In this document: positions 4,072 to 40,259 of the stretch, piece by piece
Numbering within the stretch: the first letter of the stretch is position 1
Layout of the letters: each line of letters opens with the position of its first letter
Virus record (IMG/VR): IMGVR_UViG_3300018080_000299
Span: 1 to 41,181 of that record
Direction: 5' to 3' (one strand)
Source of the DNA: a virus
Length of the DNA stretch: 41,181 nucleotides
Notes under the pieces: generated by a model
Databases searched by the model: none
Told to the model about the DNA's origin: nothing
Seen by the model: only the letters and a program-made list of their open reading frames with translations
Position numbers and translations under genes: made by a program

Positions 4072-4968
4072 ATGAGCGATAACACCAACATTGAATGGAC
4101 CGATGCAACACTATCGCCGATGACAGGGTGCACACCGGCATCTACCGGCTGTCTGAATTGCTGCGCTAAAAACATGTGTAACAGGTTCGGCGAGAAGTGG
4201 GGACGAAAGAACGGACGCGATTTTTCCAAGATAGAATTCGATGTAAAAAAGCTTGAGAGGTTCGAGCGGATACGGCACAGGAAACCGAAGAGGGTATTTC
4301 TGAACCTGATGTCAGACACGTTTCACGAAGAAGCGCGGACGGAGTGGATGGACCGGCTCCTGTCCACGATCAGCGTAAAGAAGATGCACACCTTTATTAT
4401 TCTTACAAAAAGGGCCGATCGGATGGCAGACTATTTTAATGCCATTGTAAACAACAATGAAAGGTATGCCGGAAAGCTTGTTCGCAGGTTCACTAGAAAC
4501 ACACCTTATTACGATGCTATTTATGGAAACCTGATACGTTTGAGACAGGGCAAGCCTATCCCGAATCTGTGGTTGCTTGTAACTGCCGAAAACCAGAAAC
4601 AGTATGACAGGCGCGTGCCGGAGCTGCTTTCGATTTCGGCTGCTGTGCATGGCGTGAGTGTTGAGCCGATGTTGGAAGAAATCGACACAGACATATATCT
4701 TAAATATTCTAATTTTGGATGTGGCGGAGCAGAGCCAATCGAGAATTGCGAAGTCTGCGGGCATCTTTTAAAACAAAAAATTGACTGGATAATATGCGGT
4801 GCTGAAACGGGGCCGGGAGCGAGGCCCATGAATCCTGATTGGGCGCGTAGTCTTCGTGACCAGGCGGTAGAAGCGGGTATTCCGTTCTTCTTTAAAAAGA
4901 TGTCAAACGGTGAGAAGATACCACCTGATTTGATGATAAGGCAATTCCCGAAAGGAGACGCGGAATGA
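4072..4968 (+). CDS. Phage Gp37/Gp68 family protein (DUF5131), 298 aa
   Basis: Full-length member of the phage Gp37/Gp68 family. The N-terminus carries Asn-Ile-Glu-Trp-Thr-Asp, then the three-cysteine signature Cys20-x6-Cys27-x2-Cys30 with a further Cys31. Later motifs are Phe-Leu-Asn-Leu-Met-Ser-Asp-Thr-Phe (about residue 80), Leu-Thr-Lys-Arg-Ala-Asp-Arg, Gly-Val-Ser-Val-Glu-Pro-Met, and Ile-Ile-Cys-Gly-Ala-Glu-Thr-Gly-Pro-Gly-Ala-Arg-Pro-Met near the C-terminus. The family has been suggested to resemble radical-SAM TIM-barrel enzymes because of the cysteine cluster. Its substrate is not established. Start 4072 is supported by GGAG four bases upstream; an in-frame ATG at 4045 has none. ATGA overlap links it to the next small gene. 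Confidence 0.85.
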   Translation: MSDNTNIEWTDATLSPMTGCTPASTGCLNCCAKNMCNRFGEKWGRKNGRDFSKIEFDVKKLERFERIRHRKPKRVFLNLMSDTFHEEARTEWMDRLLSTISVKKMHTFIILTKRADRMADYFNAIVNNNERYAGKLVRRFTRNTPYYDAIYGNLIRLRQGKPIPNLWLLVTAENQKQYDRRVPELLSISAAVHGVSVEPMLEEIDTDIYLKYSNFGCGGAEPIENCEVCGHLLKQKIDWIICGAETGPGARPMNPDWARSLRDQAVEAGIPFFFKKMSNGEKIPPDLMIRQFPKGDAE

Positions 4969-7451: not shown

Positions 7452-7679
7452 ATGAAAAACAATTTGAAAAAGTTTGGTGAGGCGTTGAAGGCGGCGAGAG
7501 ACAAAACGGGTATCACGCAGGTGGAACTGGCGGCTGAGCTCGGGTGTAACCATAGCTTTGTTACACTGATGGAAAAAGGCAAAAGGGCGCCAGGCACAGA
7601 GGTGGCGTTGAAGATAGAAAGATCTCTTAAACTGCCATGCACAAAAGAAACAAGAGAATTCTGTTTTCCTGTTGACTGA
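7452..7679 (+). CDS. XRE/Cro-CI family transcriptional regulator, 75 aa
   Basis: A single-domain helix-turn-helix protein. Residues 8-60 fit the lambda-repressor-like fold: Phe-Gly-Glu-Ala-Leu-Lys-Ala-Ala-Arg, then Thr-Gly-Ile-Thr-Gln-Val-Glu-Leu-Ala (helix 2), Asn-His-Ser-Phe-Val-Thr-Leu-Met-Glu-Lys-Gly (recognition helix) and Ala-Leu-Lys-Ile-Glu. GGAG lies seven bases before the ATG. There is no C-terminal dimerisation or RecA-responsive domain, so it resembles Cro more than CI. Two copies of a palindromic operator begin 12 and 42 bases after its stop, and two more lie further into the late region, so it is the best candidate regulator for them. The gene itself contains an inverted repeat of the same half-site at 7544-7566. 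Confidence 0.85.
   Translation: MKNNLKKFGEALKAARDKTGITQVELAAELGCNHSFVTLMEKGKRAPGTEVALKIERSLKLPCTKETREFCFPVD
7544..7566 (+). repeat. Inverted repeat GTGTAAC-N9-GTTACAC inside the regulator gene
   Basis: Perfect 7-base arms identical to the operator half-sites downstream, but with a 9-base spacer instead of the usual short one. It lies in codons of the recognition-helix region, so coding constraint may explain it. If bound, it would be an intragenic autoregulatory site. Confidence 0.3.
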
Positions 7680-7700
7680 TTGGATATAAAAGTGTAACCT
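7672..7700 (+). promoter_or_regulatory. Putative late promoter with operator over the -10
   Basis: TTGACT at 7672-7677 is a near-consensus -35. At 17-base spacing the -10 would be TAACCT (7695-7700), a poor match lying inside the first operator palindrome. The same geometry, -35 start to operator start 19 bases, recurs before the portal gene at 9811. That supports a regulated promoter despite the weak -10. Confidence 0.5.
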
Positions 7701-7708
7701 GTTACACA
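7691..7708 (+). promoter_or_regulatory. Operator site 1
   Basis: The sequence AGTGTAA-CCTG-TTACACA has one mismatch to the repeated palindrome TGTGTAA-N4-TTACACA. The inner GTGTAAC-CT-GTTACAC is a perfect 16-base palindrome. Its centre is 30 bases from that of site 2, about three helical turns, so two dimers could sit on one face of the DNA. Confidence 0.7.
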
Positions 7709-7720
7709 AGGTCATAATAT

Positions 7721-7738
7721 TGTGTAAGGGGTTACACA
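7721..7738 (+). promoter_or_regulatory. Operator site 2
   Basis: TGTGTAA-GGGG-TTACACA is a perfect copy of the repeated palindrome. It overlaps the AAGGGG ribosome binding sequence of the small terminase gene and ends two bases before its GTG, so a bound protein could also hinder translation initiation through RNA structure. Confidence 0.7.
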
Positions 7739-7739
7739 G

Positions 7740-8327
7740 GTGGAAGAAGAAAAGGAAAAACGTGGCCGGCCTCCCAAGGTGTCCGCGAAGATGGATCCTC
7801 CTACCCTCCCGGATAAATTGTCCGTGGAGGGTTTGCAGTTATTGTTTCCGGAACTGGATATAGATGAAGTGGCCGCTATTGAGATCAGGGAACTGGTCGA
7901 GATGGTGATAGGCGGAGATAGTTTCATGGCGAATAAGGAATTGGATGATGTGTTTTTCAGGAAGGCGATGTTGTTTAAGAAGTGGGACAAAGTGGCGCAG
8001 ACATTTATGGCGCTTCGAAGATTTGATATACACAATATGACGGAATCACTTGTGCAACAGAGTATAGAGTTGTTAAATGCCGGCCAACTGGCAAAGCTGA
8101 AGCCCAATCAGCTGGTGGGCGCGGTGGAGAAGCTTTCAAAGGCGAATACGATTGACAAAACAAATAACGATGTTAATTTGACGTTTGTGCTTGGAGGAGC
8201 AGGCAAGCCGGAATTTGATGCAATGAGGCAGGAGGCAATAGTATTGTTCCAGAATAATCCGAAGCTGCTGGATGAGCTGGTGCCGCCCAAACCAGAGGAA
8301 GAAGTGATGGATATTGAGCCGGACTGA
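7740..8327 (+). CDS. Putative terminase small subunit, 195 aa
   Basis: The gene directly precedes the large terminase gene and overlaps it by 14 bases, the usual place of the small subunit that recognises phage DNA for packaging. The N-terminus has a basic Lys-Arg-Gly-Arg-Pro-Pro-Lys AT-hook-like stretch (residues 7-13). The middle is helical, with an Ala/Leu-rich region around residues 100-150, and the acidic C-terminus could contact the large subunit. I do not recognise a named small-terminase family, so the call rests on position, size and composition. The GTG start follows AAGGGG and lies right after operator site 2. Confidence 0.65.
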   Translation: MEEEKEKRGRPPKVSAKMDPPTLPDKLSVEGLQLLFPELDIDEVAAIEIRELVEMVIGGDSFMANKELDDVFFRKAMLFKKWDKVAQTFMALRRFDIHNMTESLVQQSIELLNAGQLAKLKPNQLVGAVEKLSKANTIDKTNNDVNLTFVLGGAGKPEFDAMRQEAIVLFQNNPKLLDELVPPKPEEEVMDIEPD

Positions 8328-9789
8328 CGCCGAAATAGAAGAAATAGCGAACAATCTTACAGAAGAGCAGCTTATTGCTGTATATAAGTTGAGCGGCCAG
8401 ATGGAAAAAATAGCTGAGAGTGATCCGCTGGCGTTGTATACCCCTAATGAAATCCAGGATAAATTCCATAGATCAGATGCGATAATAAAGTTCATGTTCG
8501 GCGGCAACATGAGCGGAAAATCTTATGCGTGCTGCAAGGAGACGGCGTGCCATGCGCTGGAGTATGATCCGAGCGGTACTACACCGGACAGGTATTACGG
8601 GAAACATCCGCTGCACAAGAATGAGCCGAAGATAATCTGGTTTTGTTCTGTGAAGCTGCAGAAAGCGAAAGCGATGTGGGAGCAGACATTGAGGCCGATG
8701 TTCCCAAAGGGCTCGATTCGAAGATACGATAATTACAATGACCGTGTTTATTTGATGAACGGCAATATTATCCAGTTAATGAGTTACGAGAGTGATATCC
8801 GAATGTGGCAGTCTGATCCTGTGGATGCTATCTGCCTGGATGAACAGCCGCCGCATTTGCATTTCAAAGAAGCGAGATCGAGGGTGAACAGGAAGAGCGG
8901 AGTGATATTTTGTGCGATGACACCGCTTTATGCGCACAGCGCCTGGACATTCCGGGAGATCTGGCAGAAGGCTGACAGCAGTGAGGATATCGAGTACTGG
9001 CTGATGGACCTGGACCATAATATTCACCTTACTGAAGGGCAGAAGAACGCGCAGAAGAGAGCGTTTACTGGAACCGAGGAAGAGGATTCGAGGTTACACG
9101 GCCGGTTTACGATATTGAAGGGAATAATTCATCCTTTGTTTGATGATGAAAAGCATATAGTAAAACCGTTTGTTATTCCAAAGCGGTGGAAAGAAGAATA
9201 TTCTTTTTCCAGAGTAATTGATATGCACCCGAGGAACCCCAATGTATGTATGTGGTTTATGTACAGGGTGGCTGGAAATGCGGAAATGTGGCTGATAGAG
9301 GAGTTTGACCTGGCGGGTGGAGACGTGCGCGGGTTTGCAAATGGCGTGCACAGGATGACAAAGATGATAGATGTACCGATATCCGTGAACATAATTGATA
9401 CACCTGATGCGGAGATGAGCCAGGTAAAGGAGAATAATTTGAGGGCGGACCTGGCGAAGTATGGGATAGCCGGGCCGAAGGGCCAGCGGAGTCATGGGGC
9501 CGGTGTGCAGAGGTTTAATGAATATTTGAGATTTAAAAAGTTTAAAGTTTTTTCGCATTGCAAGAAAAGTATTGAGTCGATCAAGTACCATATGTGGGAT
9601 AATTACAAGTTGATGCAGCAGGATACCAGGGATCCGAAGGAGACCTGGATTCACAAAGATGATCACTGGGTGAGGAACTGTCATTTTCAGGCAATGTTTA
9701 TGCCGCCCCTTAATATGGATCGTGTGGCAGTGGATACGGCTGATAATCCTCAGCAATACATGCATTATCACGGATATAAGGCAGGATAG
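8314..9789 (+). CDS. terL: Terminase large subunit, 491 aa
   Basis: DNA-packaging motor ATPase and nuclease that docks on the portal. Walker A is Gly-Gly-Asn-Met-Ser-Gly-Lys-Ser (residues 63-70). Walker B is Ile-Cys-Leu-Asp-Glu with catalytic Glu177, followed by Gln-Pro-Pro. The C-terminal half carries an RNase H-like nuclease start (Val-Ile-Asp-Met-His-Pro-Arg-Asn-Pro) and a later Ile-Ile-Asp-Thr-Pro-Asp stretch that could supply a second acidic residue. Length fits the family (450-550). The start is a TTG at 8314 inside the small subunit gene; ATG 8401 would still leave both ATPase motifs intact. Confidence 0.9.
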   Translation: MSRTDAEIEEIANNLTEEQLIAVYKLSGQMEKIAESDPLALYTPNEIQDKFHRSDAIIKFMFGGNMSGKSYACCKETACHALEYDPSGTTPDRYYGKHPLHKNEPKIIWFCSVKLQKAKAMWEQTLRPMFPKGSIRRYDNYNDRVYLMNGNIIQLMSYESDIRMWQSDPVDAICLDEQPPHLHFKEARSRVNRKSGVIFCAMTPLYAHSAWTFREIWQKADSSEDIEYWLMDLDHNIHLTEGQKNAQKRAFTGTEEEDSRLHGRFTILKGIIHPLFDDEKHIVKPFVIPKRWKEEYSFSRVIDMHPRNPNVCMWFMYRVAGNAEMWLIEEFDLAGGDVRGFANGVHRMTKMIDVPISVNIIDTPDAEMSQVKENNLRADLAKYGIAGPKGQRSHGAGVQRFNEYLRFKKFKVFSHCKKSIESIKYHMWDNYKLMQQDTRDPKETWIHKDDHWVRNCHFQAMFMPPLNMDRVAVDTADNPQQYMHYHGYKAG

Positions 9790-9810
9790 AGTATGATTTT
9801 CTGGTGATAC

Positions 9811-9839
9811 TTGACATAAGTGTGATAACTGTGTAATGT
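9811..9839 (+). promoter_or_regulatory. Putative promoter before portal gene
   Basis: TTGACA (9811-9816) is a consensus -35. A -10 at 17 bases would be TAATGT (9834-9839); TGTAAT at 9832-9837 is a better match but with only 15 bases spacing. Either overlaps operator site 3. It lies in the roughly 100-base gap after the large terminase gene. Confidence 0.5.
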
Positions 9840-9847
9840 GTTACACA
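9830..9847 (+). promoter_or_regulatory. Operator site 3
   Basis: TGTGTAA-TGTG-TTACACA is a perfect palindrome copy. The symmetry extends to ten-base arms at 9827-9850. A further GTTACAC half-site with TTTGT/ACAAA symmetry lies at 9856-9868. It is placed over the promoter before the portal gene, about 40 bases upstream of its ATG. Confidence 0.7.
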
Positions 9848-9886
9848 GTTGAGGTTTTGTTACACAAACCTGTATATCGAGGAAAA

Positions 9887-11746
9887 ATGGCCAGGAAAAA
9901 GATAGGTTCCAAGAGAAAACCGGGAGTACATCCAACATTAACAGGATTGACGGATTTTCTTGATGTTTTTAACGACAAGATGAAAGATGAAGTTGTCCAG
10001 AAGTTTATTGAATATTTTTATCGGAGCAGGAATTTCAGGACGACCTGGCATGATGACTGGATAACATATTACCAGCAATACAGATCTTATTCCCCGTTTT
10101 ACAAGAGCTTACCGAACTGGAAGAGCCAGATATATGTCCCGAAGTCGTTTGAAATAATCGAGACGATACTGCCGAGGATGATGGGTGCGTTTTTTGATAC
10201 ACATCCGGTGATGGCTGCTGTGGCGGAGAAGCAGGAATATGCTGGATTGAGCGCTAATGTGGAAGAGTTGTTTGATACCAGGGCATGGCAGATGGATTTA
10301 TTTTTCAAGCAATATACGACATTTAAAGAAATGCTGATATATGGTACTGCATTCCAGAAAGTGGAATACAGGAACACGCAGGAATACCAGGGACCGATGA
10401 TAGTGCCGAAGGATATATTTGATATATATCCGGCGCCGTATGGAATTGATATGGTGGATACCCGGTATATCATAGAGCGAAGCATGCGGCATATATACGA
10501 ACTGGAATACATGAAAGACCAGGGGCTTATCAAGAGCCTGGACGGAATAACCAAGGATGGCGGGAGCAGGTATTTTTCGCATTTCGACCGGCTTCGGTCG
10601 ATAGGCTATGGAGATAATTCATCCAGTGGGACAGAGGGATATCATGAATGCCTGGAGTACTGGGGTGAATACCAGCACGAGGAGACAGATGAGATATTTG
10701 ACGTAAGGGCAATGATAGTGGACAGGCAGCATCTTGTATTTATGAGTGAGAACCCGTATTTGTTTGCTGATGAGAACGATGAGTTTTTTTACGGGTTGAA
10801 GCCTTATATAAAGTACCAGGATGTCCCGGTGCCTCATGAGTTTTACGGGATAGGTGAATGTGAAGTTATGCAGGATTTGCAGAGAGAAGTGAATGACACG
10901 AAAAACGCGATAGGAGATGCGTTGCAGTTTGCGGTGAGCCCGTCATTTACAATTCAAACCGGAACAATTGATCCACGTAATAAAGACAAGTTTGTAGTGG
11001 CTCCGGGAAAGATGAATGAAGTGCAGATACCAGATGGAATAAAGCCATTTGAGTCGTCGTTGCAGTGGATGGCCGGATATGATTTTATGGACAGGTCGAA
11101 GCAGGAAGCGAGAGACGCAACGGGGATCCAGCATACGCTATCCGGTAATGAAGGGAACATAAGAAAAACGGCCAGTGAGACAATATTGCTGCGTGACGAG
11201 AGCATGCAGAGAATAAAGATGAAGAATATGTTGAGTGCGAGAAATATGAGCGCGGCGGCAATAATGGTCGTGGCGATGGATATACAGTTTACAGATGAAA
11301 AGATCCCGGTAATGAAATTCGGGATGAAGGGCGCTTCAGAATACGGGCAGATTTCGCCGGCAGATTTAAAATGGCGTGGAAAATTCACCATAGAGCCGAG
11401 TGCGTTATTCGGGTCGAAAGCGATAAAGGCGCAGTATCGCATGCAATTCCTTGATCTCGTGTCGAAGAATGAGGCGCTTGGAAAAATGGTGAACATGCAT
11501 GAGCTGTTGAGAAGACTGGCGGAGTCGATGGATATTGATCCAAATAACCTTATAGAAGAAATGAGCCAGGCGCGGCGGGAGCCGCAGTTGACAATGATAA
11601 AGGGAGGAGCGGGCCAGTTTGGAAGGCCGGCTACATCGTTGCCGCCGCCGGCGGAAGCTGAAATGGCGGCAATAGCTGAGGCGTCTCCGGGTCCTGTTGG
11701 CGGCGAAAGAGATATTATGAATCGGTTAAATGTACAAGTAGCTTGA
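9887..11746 (+). CDS. Portal (head-tail connector) protein, 619 aa
   Basis: Ring-forming protein at the capsid vertex through which DNA is packaged. Position after the large terminase, length and sequence style fit podovirus-type portals. There is an Arg/Tyr-rich helical N-terminus with Tyr-Arg-Ser-Tyr-Ser-Pro, Lys-Ser-Phe-Glu-Ile-Ile-Glu-Thr-Ile-Leu-Pro-Arg (about residues 85-100), and a central Gln-Arg-Glu-Val-Asn-Asp-Thr-Lys-Asn-Ala segment typical of the portal crown/stem region. Near the C-terminus is a Pro/Ala/Gly-rich linker. ATG 9887 has GAGG a few bases upstream. The same frame is open back to 9836, but that extension crosses the operator half-site and has no ribosome binding site. 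Its expression seems to depend on the operator-bearing promoter just upstream. Confidence 0.85.
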   Translation: MARKKIGSKRKPGVHPTLTGLTDFLDVFNDKMKDEVVQKFIEYFYRSRNFRTTWHDDWITYYQQYRSYSPFYKSLPNWKSQIYVPKSFEIIETILPRMMGAFFDTHPVMAAVAEKQEYAGLSANVEELFDTRAWQMDLFFKQYTTFKEMLIYGTAFQKVEYRNTQEYQGPMIVPKDIFDIYPAPYGIDMVDTRYIIERSMRHIYELEYMKDQGLIKSLDGITKDGGSRYFSHFDRLRSIGYGDNSSSGTEGYHECLEYWGEYQHEETDEIFDVRAMIVDRQHLVFMSENPYLFADENDEFFYGLKPYIKYQDVPVPHEFYGIGECEVMQDLQREVNDTKNAIGDALQFAVSPSFTIQTGTIDPRNKDKFVVAPGKMNEVQIPDGIKPFESSLQWMAGYDFMDRSKQEARDATGIQHTLSGNEGNIRKTASETILLRDESMQRIKMKNMLSARNMSAAAIMVVAMDIQFTDEKIPVMKFGMKGASEYGQISPADLKWRGKFTIEPSALFGSKAIKAQYRMQFLDLVSKNEALGKMVNMHELLRRLAESMDIDPNNLIEEMSQARREPQLTMIKGGAGQFGRPATSLPPPAEAEMAAIAEASPGPVGGERDIMNRLNVQVA

Positions 11747-11773
11747 CAAAAGTTATACAATGAGTAGTATAGT
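11743..11773 (+). promoter_or_regulatory. Putative promoter after portal gene
   Basis: TTGACA (11743-11748) overlaps the portal stop codon. TAGTAT at 11765-11770 (16-base spacer) or TATAGT at 11768-11773 (19-base spacer) could serve as the -10. A GTTATAC sequence in the spacer and the operator just downstream of the -10 suggest regulation. Confidence 0.5.
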
Positions 11774-11790
11774 GGGTAAATAGTTACACA
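11773..11790 (+). promoter_or_regulatory. Operator site 4
   Basis: TGGGTAA-ATAG-TTACACA has one mismatch to the palindrome seen at sites 2 and 3. It lies immediately downstream of the putative -10 and 11 bases before the next ATG, where bound protein would block initiation or elongation. Confidence 0.6.
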
Positions 11791-11801
11791 AAGGGGATAA
11801 A

Positions 11802-12152
11802 ATGAGTAAGTCGTTACTTGAAAAGGCCAAAAAAAGAGTCAAAGCCGGACCAAAGCCCAGGGAAGAAGAAGGCAAAAAGGAAGCAGGCGGAAAGAAAACA
11901 GTGAAGTTTTCTGAATATATAACCGGAATAAAGACATTGAAAGATGCGAAGAGCCTGATAGGGCGGATGGCAAAAAGTATTCCGGGTGAGAAGCTGGAGA
12001 AGATGGTTCAGGATCTTGTGCCCGATGATGCAGAAGAAAATAAAGAGGAGCAGGATGGACAGGAAGAGGAGATGAGTCCCGAGCAGGTGGCGGAGGCTTT
12101 GAAAAAGCAAACCGATGAAATCATGGAATCCTGGGGAGGGTTAAAAGGTTGA
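11802..12152 (+). CDS. Hypothetical structural-region protein, 116 aa
   Basis: The N-terminal third is strongly basic (Lys/Arg/Pro/Gly-rich) and the C-terminal half strongly acidic (Glu/Asp/Gln-rich), ending in a Trp-Gly-Gly. AAGGGG precedes the ATG. It lies between portal and scaffold, where podoviruses often keep small head-assembly or portal-associated proteins. No family was recognised. Confidence 0.6.
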   Translation: MSKSLLEKAKKRVKAGPKPREEEGKKEAGGKKTVKFSEYITGIKTLKDAKSLIGRMAKSIPGEKLEKMVQDLVPDDAEENKEEQDGQEEEMSPEQVAEALKKQTDEIMESWGGLKG

Positions 12153-13484: not shown

Positions 13485-14759
13485 ATGGAAACACAGACTG
13501 GACAGAGAACAGTATCGAGTGTAAATTCGGGAATACTGCCGCTGAATTTTTCCAGCAAGGTATTTAATCCGGAAGTAGATAAAGGCCGCGGGCCGGATTT
13601 TGAAACCGTGCTTTTCCGGCTGTTGTACAAGCTTGGAGAGGGACTGGGCAAAGAAACCAAGACCCGTAAATTCCAGGTAGCAGACGATGAATTCGAGCAG
13701 AGGCAGACGAGTATCCTGGCGATAGCCACGCCCACGGCCACGGTATTTACCGTGCCGACAGATATCGGGCTTATACTGCGCCCCGGATTCCTGTTGAAAA
13801 ACCTGAAAACAGCGGAAGTGTATTACATCCTTGGAGTGATCGGTGACACGATCACAGTGACCAGGGACTGGGGCACGTTCCTTGGCGGAGCGGCTGCAAC
13901 CACGGCAAACGGTGATAATCTCGCAATACTGGGCGAAGCGGCAGCAGAAGGAGGCGCCAGCGGCGAAGCTATTTCGAACCAGGTGGATATTTCCTATAAC
14001 TTTACATCGTTTATCCGGACACCGTTTGACGTTTCGGATCACGACTATCATGGTGAAACGGAAATCGGAAACGACTGGGACCGGATCAGCAAGAGAGCAA
14101 TGATCCAGCACAGGATCCAGATTGAATACCAGCTGTGGCACAGCTACAGGAATGCTACTACTCATCCGACAACGGGTAAGCCGTTACACACAACCGGTGG
14201 AGTCCTGCAGCATATCCAGGGTAATATCCACGACCTTTCGGCGAATACCGGGGGCGTGCTGACAGAGCGCGAGATGGATGCTGCGATGGAGATGTTTTTC
14301 CAGAACGGCAGTAATGAAAAGTGGGGCTGGACCGGAACCCACTTCCTTTCCGGCCTGTCAAGTTTTGCTAAAAACAAGATGCGATTCCATGACAGGAAGA
14401 GCAAGGAATACGGAATGAACATTACCGTATATGAGCATGGCGGAAACAAGATGTATATAGTCGAGCACAAAAAGGTGTTCACTGGTTACGGGGCCACCAG
14501 CGGCTACACGGGCGGAACCCTTGCCAGCCAGCTCGTGGTAATGGACATGAACTGCTGGGGCCTGCGCCATTTCAAAGGCATGGGCACGAAGCTGCACAAG
14601 AATATCCAGCAGAATGATGTGTCCGGAAGAAAAGACGAATGGAGAACAACGATAGGTGTGGAAGGCAGGCCCGGGATTGATAATCCCCGGAATGTGACGA
14701 CCGCCCCCGACCAGTTCCTGAGCCCGAACGGAAAGCTTATCGGGTTTGATACTTATTGA
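13485..14759 (+). CDS. Major capsid protein, 424 aa
   Basis: Main shell protein, called from its place after the scaffold, its length and its character. The Gly/Ala/Thr-rich sequence has an N-terminal Asn-Ser-Gly-Ile-Leu-Pro-Leu-Asn-Phe-Ser-Ser stretch. A beta-rich region follows with Asp-Thr-Ile-Thr-Val-Thr-Arg-Asp-Trp-Gly-Thr (about residues 125-135) and then a helix resembling the long spine helix of the HK97 fold. The style resembles the SU10/DUF5309-type capsid proteins, which I cannot confirm without a profile search. GAGAGG lies about ten bases upstream. A hairpin at 14770-14795 follows the stop. Confidence 0.85.
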   Translation: METQTGQRTVSSVNSGILPLNFSSKVFNPEVDKGRGPDFETVLFRLLYKLGEGLGKETKTRKFQVADDEFEQRQTSILAIATPTATVFTVPTDIGLILRPGFLLKNLKTAEVYYILGVIGDTITVTRDWGTFLGGAAATTANGDNLAILGEAAAEGGASGEAISNQVDISYNFTSFIRTPFDVSDHDYHGETEIGNDWDRISKRAMIQHRIQIEYQLWHSYRNATTHPTTGKPLHTTGGVLQHIQGNIHDLSANTGGVLTEREMDAAMEMFFQNGSNEKWGWTGTHFLSGLSSFAKNKMRFHDRKSKEYGMNITVYEHGGNKMYIVEHKKVFTGYGATSGYTGGTLASQLVVMDMNCWGLRHFKGMGTKLHKNIQQNDVSGRKDEWRTTIGVEGRPGIDNPRNVTTAPDQFLSPNGKLIGFDTY

Positions 14760-33883: not shown

Positions 33884-33945
33884 GTTGGTATGGTAGGAGA
33901 ATTTTTATTGCCTATACCTGACTATACTTTATTTATGAAGTGGGG

Positions 33946-33974
33946 TTGACTAAATTGTGATAATGGTTTATTGT
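33946..33974 (+). promoter_or_regulatory. Putative sigma70-type promoter for the early/replication operon
   Basis: TTGACT (33946-33951), a 17-base spacer and TATTGT (33969-33974) lie about 65 bases before the first gene of the operon and just after the late terminator. The surrounding DNA is AT-rich. TATACT near 33922 might be the -10 of a second promoter, but lacks a good -35. Confidence 0.6.
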
Positions 33975-34269: not shown

Positions 34270-34473
34270 ATGGAAGGAATTGATTTGAAAATTGAGCGGG
34301 TGAGGAGTGGTGTGAAGGCGAAGGACCTGGCGGCGGTGCTGGGTGTGAGCGCGGCCAGGGTGTACCAGGTGGAGCAGTGTGGTTGTGTGGGCCTGGAATG
34401 GAGTGAACGGTATGTGGCCGGCCTGCGGGAGCTGGTGGCGAAACGGAATGTTGTTGATGATTTGGAGGTTTGA
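34270..34473 (+). CDS. Small HTH (XRE-like) DNA-binding protein, 67 aa
   Basis: Residues ~5-45 give a helix-turn-helix: Lys-Ala-Lys-Asp-Leu-Ala-Ala-Val-Leu-Gly-Val-Ser-Ala-Ala-Arg-Val-Tyr-Gln-Val-Glu. GGAGG precedes the ATG. It overlaps the PP-loop gene start by one base. It could regulate this operon, possibly with the Cro-like protein at 7452 as the late regulator, but its target is unknown. Confidence 0.65.
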   Translation: MEGIDLKIERVRSGVKAKDLAAVLGVSAARVYQVEQCGCVGLEWSERYVAGLRELVAKRNVVDDLEV

Positions 34474-35268: not shown

Positions 35269-35298
35269 TCGGAACCCGAGTTGAAAAAAAATTTGGAG
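35269..35298 (+). repeat. Intergenic repeat copy A (hairpin, A-tract, RBS)
   Basis: The unit reads TCGGAACCCGAG then TTG, an A-tract, TTT and GGAG; with the preceding C its first part can form a five-pair CTCGG/CCGAG hairpin. It is nearly identical to copy B at 35858-35887. It lies between the PP-loop gene and the next small gene and supplies that gene's ribosome binding site. Confidence 0.65.
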
Positions 35299-35857: not shown

Positions 35858-35887
35858 TCGGAACCCGAGTTGAAAAAAATTTTGGAG
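35858..35887 (+). repeat. Intergenic repeat copy B (hairpin, A-tract, RBS)
   Basis: TCGGAACCCGAG, TTG, a seven-A tract, TTTT and GGAG; it differs from copy A by one A/T exchange at the tract end. It begins at the stop codon of the Zn-binding gene and provides the ribosome binding site for the gene at 35896. A weaker, partly related sequence occurs near 34480. Confidence 0.65.
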
Positions 35888-39072: not shown

Positions 39073-39670
39073 ATACAGTGGGACGGTGCGTGATGCTTTT
39101 GCTGCTCGGGGTCATGAGGCGTGGAGTTGTGATATCCTAGAGACTGAGCAGGCCGCAGGTTTTCATATTCAGGATGATGTTTTCAATCATATTGATGATG
39201 GGTGGGATATGATGATAGCCCATCCTCCGTGTACTGATATAGCGATATCCGGAGCAAAGTGGTTTGAGCTAAAGAGAAAAGACGGGCGGCAGAAGGCAGG
39301 GATAGATATGTTTATGAGGGTGGCGTCTGCAAACATAAACAAGATTTGCATAGAGAATCCCGTGAATATTATGAGTACTGAGTGGAGGCCGCCAGACCAG
39401 ATAATTCAGCCGTATTATTTTGGAGATGAAGCACAGAAAACGACATGGCTGTGGCTTAAAAACCTGCCGAAATTGATTCATGTGGAAAAAGATGATTTGT
39501 TTAATTGTTCTACCCATGTGGGTAAAGGTGAGTTTGTAACCACAAAGAGCGGGAAGAAGCTGCCGAAATGGTATTCTAATGCTCATGGAAAAGGTGGTGT
39601 CTCGCGGGGCGGGGTGAGGGCGAAGACTTTCCCGGGAATTGCTCGGGCAATGGCTGAACAGTGGGGTTGA
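39050..39670 (+). CDS. C5-cytosine methyltransferase-like protein, 206 aa
   Basis: SAM-dependent enzyme of the C5-cytosine type. The N-terminal Phe-Glu-Tyr-Ser-Gly...Gly-His-Glu-Ala-Trp-Ser-Cys-Asp-Ile is a divergent motif I. Cys61 follows Pro59-Pro60 (motif IV), and Glu102-Asn103-Pro104 fits motif VI. At 206 residues it is shorter than typical enzymes (300-400), and no target-recognition domain is obvious. It may therefore be a minimal methylase or a relative acting on nucleotides. The GTG start follows GAAGGA. It is the last gene of the operon. Confidence 0.65.
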   Translation: MKVLVAFEYSGTVRDAFAARGHEAWSCDILETEQAAGFHIQDDVFNHIDDGWDMMIAHPPCTDIAISGAKWFELKRKDGRQKAGIDMFMRVASANINKICIENPVNIMSTEWRPPDQIIQPYYFGDEAQKTTWLWLKNLPKLIHVEKDDLFNCSTHVGKGEFVTTKSGKKLPKWYSNAHGKGGVSRGGVRAKTFPGIARAMAEQWG

Positions 39671-39694
39671 CGGGATTTTAATTGTGTATATAAT
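39667..39694 (+). promoter_or_regulatory. Strong putative sigma70 promoter for a short transcript
   Basis: TTGACG (39667-39672), a 16-base spacer and a perfect TATAAT (39689-39694) overlap the end of the methyltransferase-like gene. It is the best promoter match in the window, and no ORF starts within 200 bases downstream. Confidence 0.7.
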
Positions 39695-39699
39695 AGTGG

Positions 39700-39815
39700 T
39701 TGCATAGTCGTTTTCCGTTTTATACTCCTTTTCCGGGAAACGACAATCCTCCTTTTTTGGGTTTTGACGAGTTGTACGGAACCCCCGATTTGACCGGTCG
39801 GGGGTTTTCTGTTTT
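39700..39815 (+). ncRNA. Candidate small RNA 1
   Basis: About 115 bases between a strong promoter and an intrinsic terminator, without a supported ORF. It contains a ten-pair stem (39707-39716 with 39735-39744, one G-U pair) around an 18-base pyrimidine-rich loop, a T-rich single-stranded stretch, and the terminator hairpin. The shape fits a phage small regulatory RNA. Alternatives are an untranslated leader or a structured 3' end of the upstream operon. Confidence 0.5.
39780..39812 (+). terminator. Intrinsic terminator after candidate small RNA 1
   Basis: AACCCCCGA (39780-39788) and TCGGGGGTT (39798-39806) form nine pairs around a nine-base loop and are followed by TTCTGTTTTC. Downstream, 39813-40100 (about 290 bases) shows no convincing gene. 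Two short frames there (37 and 34 codons, e.g. 39964-40068) have poorly placed ribosome binding sites and are not annotated. Confidence 0.7.
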
Positions 39816-40115
39816 CGGTGTTGGTGGCCGCTCTGCTGTGGCCGCGTGCCGTGAGGGCGCTGCGTTTGGGGAGCTGGCAGCTCTTCGGGTGGTATTTTGT
39901 GTGGAAGGATGGGGCGGGGCGTGAAAGTGCGTGAGAAGGGCGCGGCGCAGCTGTTCGGGAGGGATGATGGATTTTTTGGTGCTGGTGTGGAGGCTGCGGG
40001 CGTGGCGGGCGGAAATGGGTGAATTGAGAGGAGCGGGTGAAAACTCTTTTTGGGGGACTATTTTTTAAAATAAAAAAAATGGGTAATTTGTGGGGGAATG
40101 GAGGTTGACAGGGGG

Positions 40116-40145
40116 TTGACTGGCGGAAGGTGGTTGTTTTAGAAT
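40116..40145 (+). promoter_or_regulatory. Putative promoter for a second short transcript
   Basis: TTGACT (40116-40121), an 18-base spacer and TAGAAT (40140-40145). A second TTGACA lies 11 bases upstream at 40105. Any transcript would run into the terminator at 40207, about 60 bases on, and towards the convergent recombinase gene. Confidence 0.5.
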
Positions 40146-40151
40146 TGGGTC

Positions 40152-40240
40152 TGAGTTGAAGTAAAGTACATTATAGCGGCCAGGACCGATACTGCGGCAT
40201 CCTGGCGAACCCCCGGTTGTCGAGCCGGGGGTTCTTCTGT
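40152..40240 (+). ncRNA. Candidate small RNA 2 (or recombination site)
   Basis: Roughly 90 bases with a hairpin GCCAGGA/TCCTGGC (40179-40185 with 40200-40206) whose loop carries an inner CCG/CGG pairing. A strong terminator follows immediately. Its layout (promoter, hairpin, terminator) repeats that of candidate RNA 1. Alternatively, the imperfect palindrome at 40179-40206 next to the serine recombinase could be its recombination site. Confidence 0.45.
40207..40240 (+). terminator. Intrinsic terminator after candidate small RNA 2
   Basis: GAACCCCCGG and CCGGGGGTTC (40207-40216 with 40225-40234) form ten pairs around an eight-base loop. TTCTGTTT follows on the plus strand, so termination is plus-directed; on the minus strand no T-run follows. 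It closely resembles the terminator at 39780-39812, as if one derived from the other. Confidence 0.7.
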
Positions 40241-40259
40241 TTGGGCAGTTCTTCGGGGG

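Follow-up and report, generated by a model that had tools for sequence, protein, structure and literature searches.

An 18-base palindrome repeated in gene gaps behind a small XRE-type gene: putative operators ahead of the packaging and head genes of a phage

The viral record IMGVR_UViG_3300018080_000299 of IMG/VR, which is classed as linear and was analysed over its whole length of 41,181 bases (the window), carries an 18-base palindrome, TGTGTAA-N4-TTACACA, in several gaps between its genes. Just upstream of the first pair of copies, as originally predicted, lies a gene for a 75-residue XRE-type protein with a helix-turn-helix (HTH). This gene, xre, runs from 7452 to 7679 on the plus strand, has a ribosome site, AGGAG, ahead of its ATG and ends with a stop codon 11 bases before the first copy. 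The two perfect copies and the two with one mismatch lie where the original prediction had placed them and differ as it had described. We call them operators O1 to O4.

7691-7708: operator O1, AGTGTAACCTGTTACACA, one mismatch; covers the putative -10 of promoter P1
7721-7738: operator O2, TGTGTAAGGGGTTACACA, perfect; forms a pair with O1, the centres 30 bp apart
9830-9847: operator O3, TGTGTAATGTGTTACACA, perfect; the symmetry reaches out to 9827-9850
11773-11790: operator O4, TGGGTAAATAGTTACACA, one mismatch; downstream of the -10 of promoter P3

In a large sequence collection one perfect 18-mer of this type is common, and among the matches listed nearly all are unrelated, which is the case for chance or base composition as the source of the repeats. 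A scan of the whole window with up to three mismatches allowed gave five matches, compared to an average of 1.15 in 100 shuffled sequences, none of which reached five. The same was seen when no pattern was chosen beforehand: the largest family, within one mismatch, of any perfect palindrome with 7-bp arms had four members in the window and at most two in 100 dinucleotide shuffles. All four operators sit in coding gaps, as had been claimed, and such gaps make up 6.0% of the bases and 4.9% of the possible 18-mer starts (chance about 6e-6 if placement were random). Four sites in 41 kb, all in gaps, with none of 100 shuffles comparable, rule out an artefact of chance or composition, for which we see almost no probability left. 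The data support the palindrome as real: operator-like, repeated, restricted to gaps and lying behind an XRE/HTH gene.

The fifth match, with two mismatches, is CGGGTAAGCCGTTACACA at 14173-14190, inside the capsid gene; it shares with the site at 11773 the same change in the left half (GGGTAA). In all five sites the right half, GTTACACA, is unchanged, and every mismatch falls in the left half. The description of the repeats as running through the late region proved too broad: the sites cover 4 kb, from 7.7 to 11.8 kb, and beyond 11790 there is only this two-mismatch match in the capsid gene.

Each of the three gaps has a TTGAC-type -35 box upstream of its operator or operator pair. The original prediction had given every site such a box; that holds for the gaps, but the site at 7721, as the second member of a pair, has none of its own. 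The distance of exactly 19 bases from the start of the -35 to the start of the operator at two promoters was borne out (TTGAC at 7672 to O1 at 7691, and at 9811 to O3 at 9830). The third box, at 11743, lies 30 bases before O4 at 11773. For a random position, the probability of a TTGAC 10 to 35 bases upstream is 0.036, and for three of three it is 4.6e-5.

7672-7677, plus strand: TTGACT, putative -35 of P1; overlaps the last codons of xre
9811-9816, plus strand: TTGACA, putative -35 of P2; 19 bases before O3
11743-11748, plus strand: TTGACA, putative -35 of P3; shares bases with the stop codon of portal; -10 candidate TAGTAT at a spacer of 16

The promoters are predictions, and promoter-like matches over the window are at chance level (26 vs 27.2 expected). 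With promoters so placed, the operator covers the expected -10 at P1 and P2 and follows the -10 at P3. Another gap sequence, at 33946, agrees with P2 in 16 of 21 bases and begins with TTGAC and has no palindrome, which argues that the palindrome was added to certain promoters and does not belong to a promoter motif in general use. A promoter-like sequence, AGTGGGGTTGAC, was seen twice, in gaps or at a gap edge (33939-33961 and 39660-39682); the second copy reads by eye as TTGACG-16-TATAAT, a strong promoter of host type that points rightward into a long gap.

The phage is a tailed one, and the genes behind its operators are as follows.

7740-8327, plus strand: presumed small subunit of terminase, starting with GTG; the first gene after O1 and O2, named only from its place before the large subunit
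8314-9789, plus strand: large terminase subunit (Terminase_6N, 9.4e-5; phrog_10250, 3.4e-6; 25% identity to the terminase of a spring phage)
9887-11746, plus strand: portal protein of SU10 type, behind O3 (SU10_portal, 1.5e-17; phrog_332, 2.8e-29)
11802-12152, plus strand: 116-residue protein behind O4, with no convincing family in Pfam and PHROG searches

The presumed small terminase found no family match in those searches either. The capsid protein is of SU10 type (2e-23 in a search of Pfam-type families).

The xre product scores 41.7 bits against the Pfam HTH_3 family (PF01381; cut-off 23, E=1.2e-10) and falls in the PHROG class of transcriptional regulators. Its nearest solved relatives are an entry named DBP48 and then C.BclI, CylR2 and C.AhdI. 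The 75 residues hold an HTH domain only, with no cleavage, ligand or C-terminal oligomerisation domain; a protein this short leaves no space for a cleavage domain, and it can fairly be called Cro-like or C-like but not CI-like, since the C-terminal oligomerisation/cleavage domain that marks a CI-type lysogeny repressor is absent. A structure model made from the single sequence had a pLDDT of 48 and was not used. Within xre itself, at 7544-7566, two perfect half-sites face each other in a split palindrome (GTGTAAC-N9-GTTACAC) that overlies the codons of the recognition helix (GCNHSFVTL); their spacing is 7 bp more than in the operators and would be wrong for the same dimer.

The sites, their rarity, their placement in gaps, the -35 spacing and the HTH family are shown by the sequence; the XRE protein as binder, repression as the outcome and the stage of the life cycle at which it would act are inferred. 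The protein is taken as the binder for two reasons only, the adjacency of its gene and the dyad form of the site, and the position of the sites over the region from -10 to start fits repression. The palindrome would then be a DNA operator bound by an XRE/HTH dimer in the manner of 434- and P22-type repressors, with one recognition helix on each TGTGTAA half and the central four bases free. A bound dimer would cover the region from -10 to start of three host-polymerase promoters and shut the polymerase out: P1 ahead of the presumed small terminase, P2 ahead of portal and P3 ahead of the next gene. The packaging and head genes would be kept off until the repressor is lost, diluted or out-titrated, with P1, under the twin site O1-O2, as the most tightly held promoter. 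That the XRE protein represses the packaging and head genes is the simplest way to read the locus, and we think it probable that an XRE dimer binds the operator dyads and represses P1 to P3. Of the original proposal that a repressor controls terminase, portal and the gene after portal, the repeated operators behind an HTH gene and their position stood up; direct control of head-gene dosage is only one option, and lysogenic silencing or timing fit equally well.

Several results count against this reading. No operator match, up to four mismatches, is present in the xre leader, where xre's own promoter would lie, so that the autoregulation which Cro and C proteins usually show is not seen. The -10 hexamers of P1 and P2 at a spacer of 17, TAACCT and TAATGT, are weak, each with three of six matches. 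No close relative came up when 2.9 million viral contigs were scanned with terminase, portal, DnaB and XRE peptides. Scans for tandem operators led to other systems, or to flanks with LacI- or NtrC-type regulators; because the same class of palindrome adjoins LacI-family and NtrC-type genes elsewhere, the sequence does not identify its binder. Of the viral contigs with a perfect operator, among the matches listed, most were unrelated, and only one, L066, had a distant portal together with two perfect sites; on its 21.9-kb fragment an HTH_3 gene was not detected. In 680 genomes from two phyla guessed as hosts, XRE homologues were weak (E no better than 5e-8), with different recognition helices, and had no operator within about 1.5 kb of the ones read.

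The poor -10 boxes bring up activation. The XRE protein might activate, or both activate and repress, weak P1 and P2 in the way of the controller (C) proteins of restriction systems; a twin site is present, and C.BclI and C.AhdI are among the closest solved relatives. However, the sites overlap or follow the -10, a position that blocks polymerase, and do not lie upstream of the -35, and P3, which has a better -10, carries a site all the same. We give activation little credence.

The regulators found beside such palindromes elsewhere raise another question, whether a host-encoded regulator (LacI, NtrC, CRP/FNR or Rex-like) owns the operators, so that the phage ties late transcription to the state of the host and the adjacency of xre is accidental. 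In bacterial genomes, tandem copies of the palindrome lie upstream of a LacI-family gene in one case (L142) and beside NtrC-type activators in two (L134 and L136), and the length and the N4 centre recall Rex and FNR sites. On the other side, the phage has an HTH gene of its own only 11 bases ahead of O1, its TTGAC boxes resemble those of sigma-70 and not of sigma-54, and half-site and spacing are unlike the CRP, FNR and Rex consensuses. A host regulator in this role seems unlikely to us. The tandem TGTGTAA-N4-TTACACA-like sites of L134 (2662-2724) and L136 (2534-2587), beside NtrC-type activator genes in Geobacteraceae and deltaproteobacterial genomes, are candidate enhancer sites in their own right.

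Other searches bear on how far the phage stands apart. Named phages show about 20-27% identity to the window's terminase and portal, the XRE recognition-helix pattern gave no match in the viral contigs, and an alignment of five terminase sequences was too diverged to serve as a query. A scan for TTGAC followed by the operator returned 30 matches, near a rough chance estimate; none convinced as a relative, and the one terminase match was weak (E=0.002). HTH_3 genes were present in 12 of 50 operator-bearing viral records; the close neighbours G002, G003 and G028 have different proteins, and the xre gene of G028 seems to have another operator. The phage is thus isolated, as far as the viral collections searched show. 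That removes what would be the best test, co-variation of recognition helix and operator. Two observations on other records are added here. In L066 the perfect copies, at 4721 and 8389, each lie just ahead of a gene start. The related viral records L039 and L059, with similar 388-residue recombinases, share two copies of the palindrome, one perfect and the other with a single mismatch, at a distance of 118 bp; an XRE gene whose recognition helix is different follows about 1 kb downstream.

The paired operators may also matter in RNA. O1 and O2 repeat one another both directly and in inverted form, and O2 ends one base before the predicted start codon of the small terminase gene. Its centre, GGGG, nine bases before the GTG start, is the likely Shine-Dalgarno sequence of that gene.

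7692-7738, plus strand: possible hairpin in RNA that reads through from xre; the O1 and O2 stretches pair and mask the GGGG

The 131-nt region 7660-7790 has a computed folding energy of -39.7 kcal/mol (z -3.34), and none of 200 shuffles was as stable. In the computed fold of read-through RNA the GGGG is about 99% paired, one base excepted. The ribosome site opens when the 5′ end of the RNA lies at about 7705-7710, and all four G are unpaired (probability 0.99) at about 7707-7710, as expected from P1; the start codon of the small terminase and the P1 start site are predictions. Such hiding of a ribosome site, dependent on where the RNA starts, is predicted by the computed folds at the terminase gene only, and the site was not hidden at portal or at 11802. 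An Rfam search found nothing.

These folds allow the view that the repeats act mainly in RNA, as hairpins that steer translation or processing of late messages, with read-through RNA hiding the terminase ribosome site and RNA started at P1 showing it in a loop. The stability of the fold and the contrast between read-through and P1-type RNA speak for it, and in phage T4 genes e, soc, 49 and I-TevI work in such a fashion, the ribosome site being hidden in read-through RNA and exposed in locally started RNA (PMC3014915). Unlike in T4, the RNA arms here would be the DNA operators themselves. Two copies of a palindrome pair unavoidably, though, and the O1:O2 fold may be a by-product of their adjacency. 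The copy at 11773 has no stable hairpin, and the portal ribosome site is exposed. Since the fold is absent at portal and 11802, a role in RNA cannot account for the repeats in general, and an RNA hairpin as the sole explanation is rejected because the 11773 copy does not fold. The mismatch in O4 destroys the hairpin (-0.5 kcal/mol) and keeps a perfect half-site, which favours recognition as DNA. A main role in RNA is therefore quite unlikely in our judgement.

It is also conceivable, if rather doubtful, that both layers operate at the terminase gene, as a lock in which the HTH protein sits on the twin operators over the promoter and the transcribed operators clamp the ribosome site. On that scheme, which we hold just as tentatively, the DNA operator doubles as the sequence of an RNA gate, and only RNA started within the first operator would give small terminase.

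Repression by the XRE protein, the reading we favour, has relatives among known systems. Small HTH repressors on dyads of 18 bp or less with uncontacted centres are classical (434 and P22); work on them is among the references of PMC3317979. As with the 434, P22 C2 and lambda-type repressors and Cro, a small HTH_3-type protein goes here with dyads whose outer halves are conserved and whose centre varies, the sites lie over promoters and neighbouring sites are paired; the near-identical dyads recur at predicted phage promoters, as for a Cro-like protein. Unlike in those phages, the sites lie outside any divergent immunity region with a cI/cro pair and stand before terminase, portal and the next gene, with none at the repressor's own promoter. 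The phiC31 repressor, a much larger protein, has dispersed, near-identical palindromic operators in intergenic gaps, like the sites here, but those serve early promoters. The C1 repressor of phage P1 is likewise much larger than 75 residues.

The premise of the original prediction, that phage repressors usually act at an immunity region, is too narrow: C1 of phage P1 has 22 operators dispersed over the genome (PMC8546580), and L5-type repressors bind many sites throughout theirs (PMC6550527). One phage repressor with dispersed operators would be common to phage P1 and the arrangement here, whereas the C1 operators are asymmetric and 17 bp long and here four palindromes lie in 4 kb. Mycobacteriophage L5 and Cluster A likewise have multiple repressor sites beyond the main immunity promoter (PMC6550527, PMC9283540). 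The L5 stoperators are asymmetric, directional and mostly off promoters; the sites here are symmetric dyads beside -35-like TTGAC boxes, which sets them apart from stoperators, though the right half is better conserved. Dispersed operators for one phage repressor are already known, and symmetric operators at head-gene promoters with a 75-residue protein are a variant. The proposed control is sensible and not unprecedented among phages.

The record also encodes a DnaB helicase and, on the minus strand at its right end, a small serine recombinase, which hints at temperance. The recombinase gene is preceded by a 589-base gap (39671-40259) with two strong GC hairpins (39780-39806 and 40207-40234), and 27-base direct repeats lie on that side at 39875, 40243 and 41052; the region is a possible attachment or control region. 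A second small HTH-like protein, of 67 residues, is encoded at 34270-34473 (HTH_31, 1.7e-4, below cut-off), directly before a PAPS-reductase-like gene; no palindrome was found there. A near-identical 30-base repeat, TCGGAACCCGAGTTGAAAAAAAATTTGGAG, flanks small genes at 35269-35298 and 35858-35887.

If the XRE protein does repress P1 to P3, a phage without close relatives in the collections searched would control packaging and head genes through a very small repressor devoted to them, with an operator set of its own, in place of a late activator or antiterminator. The locus would be a clean case in which to ask if a single sequence can act both as DNA operator and as RNA gate. It would also offer a compact parts list, a 75-residue protein, an 18-bp operator and three promoters, that could be rebuilt in a reporter strain.

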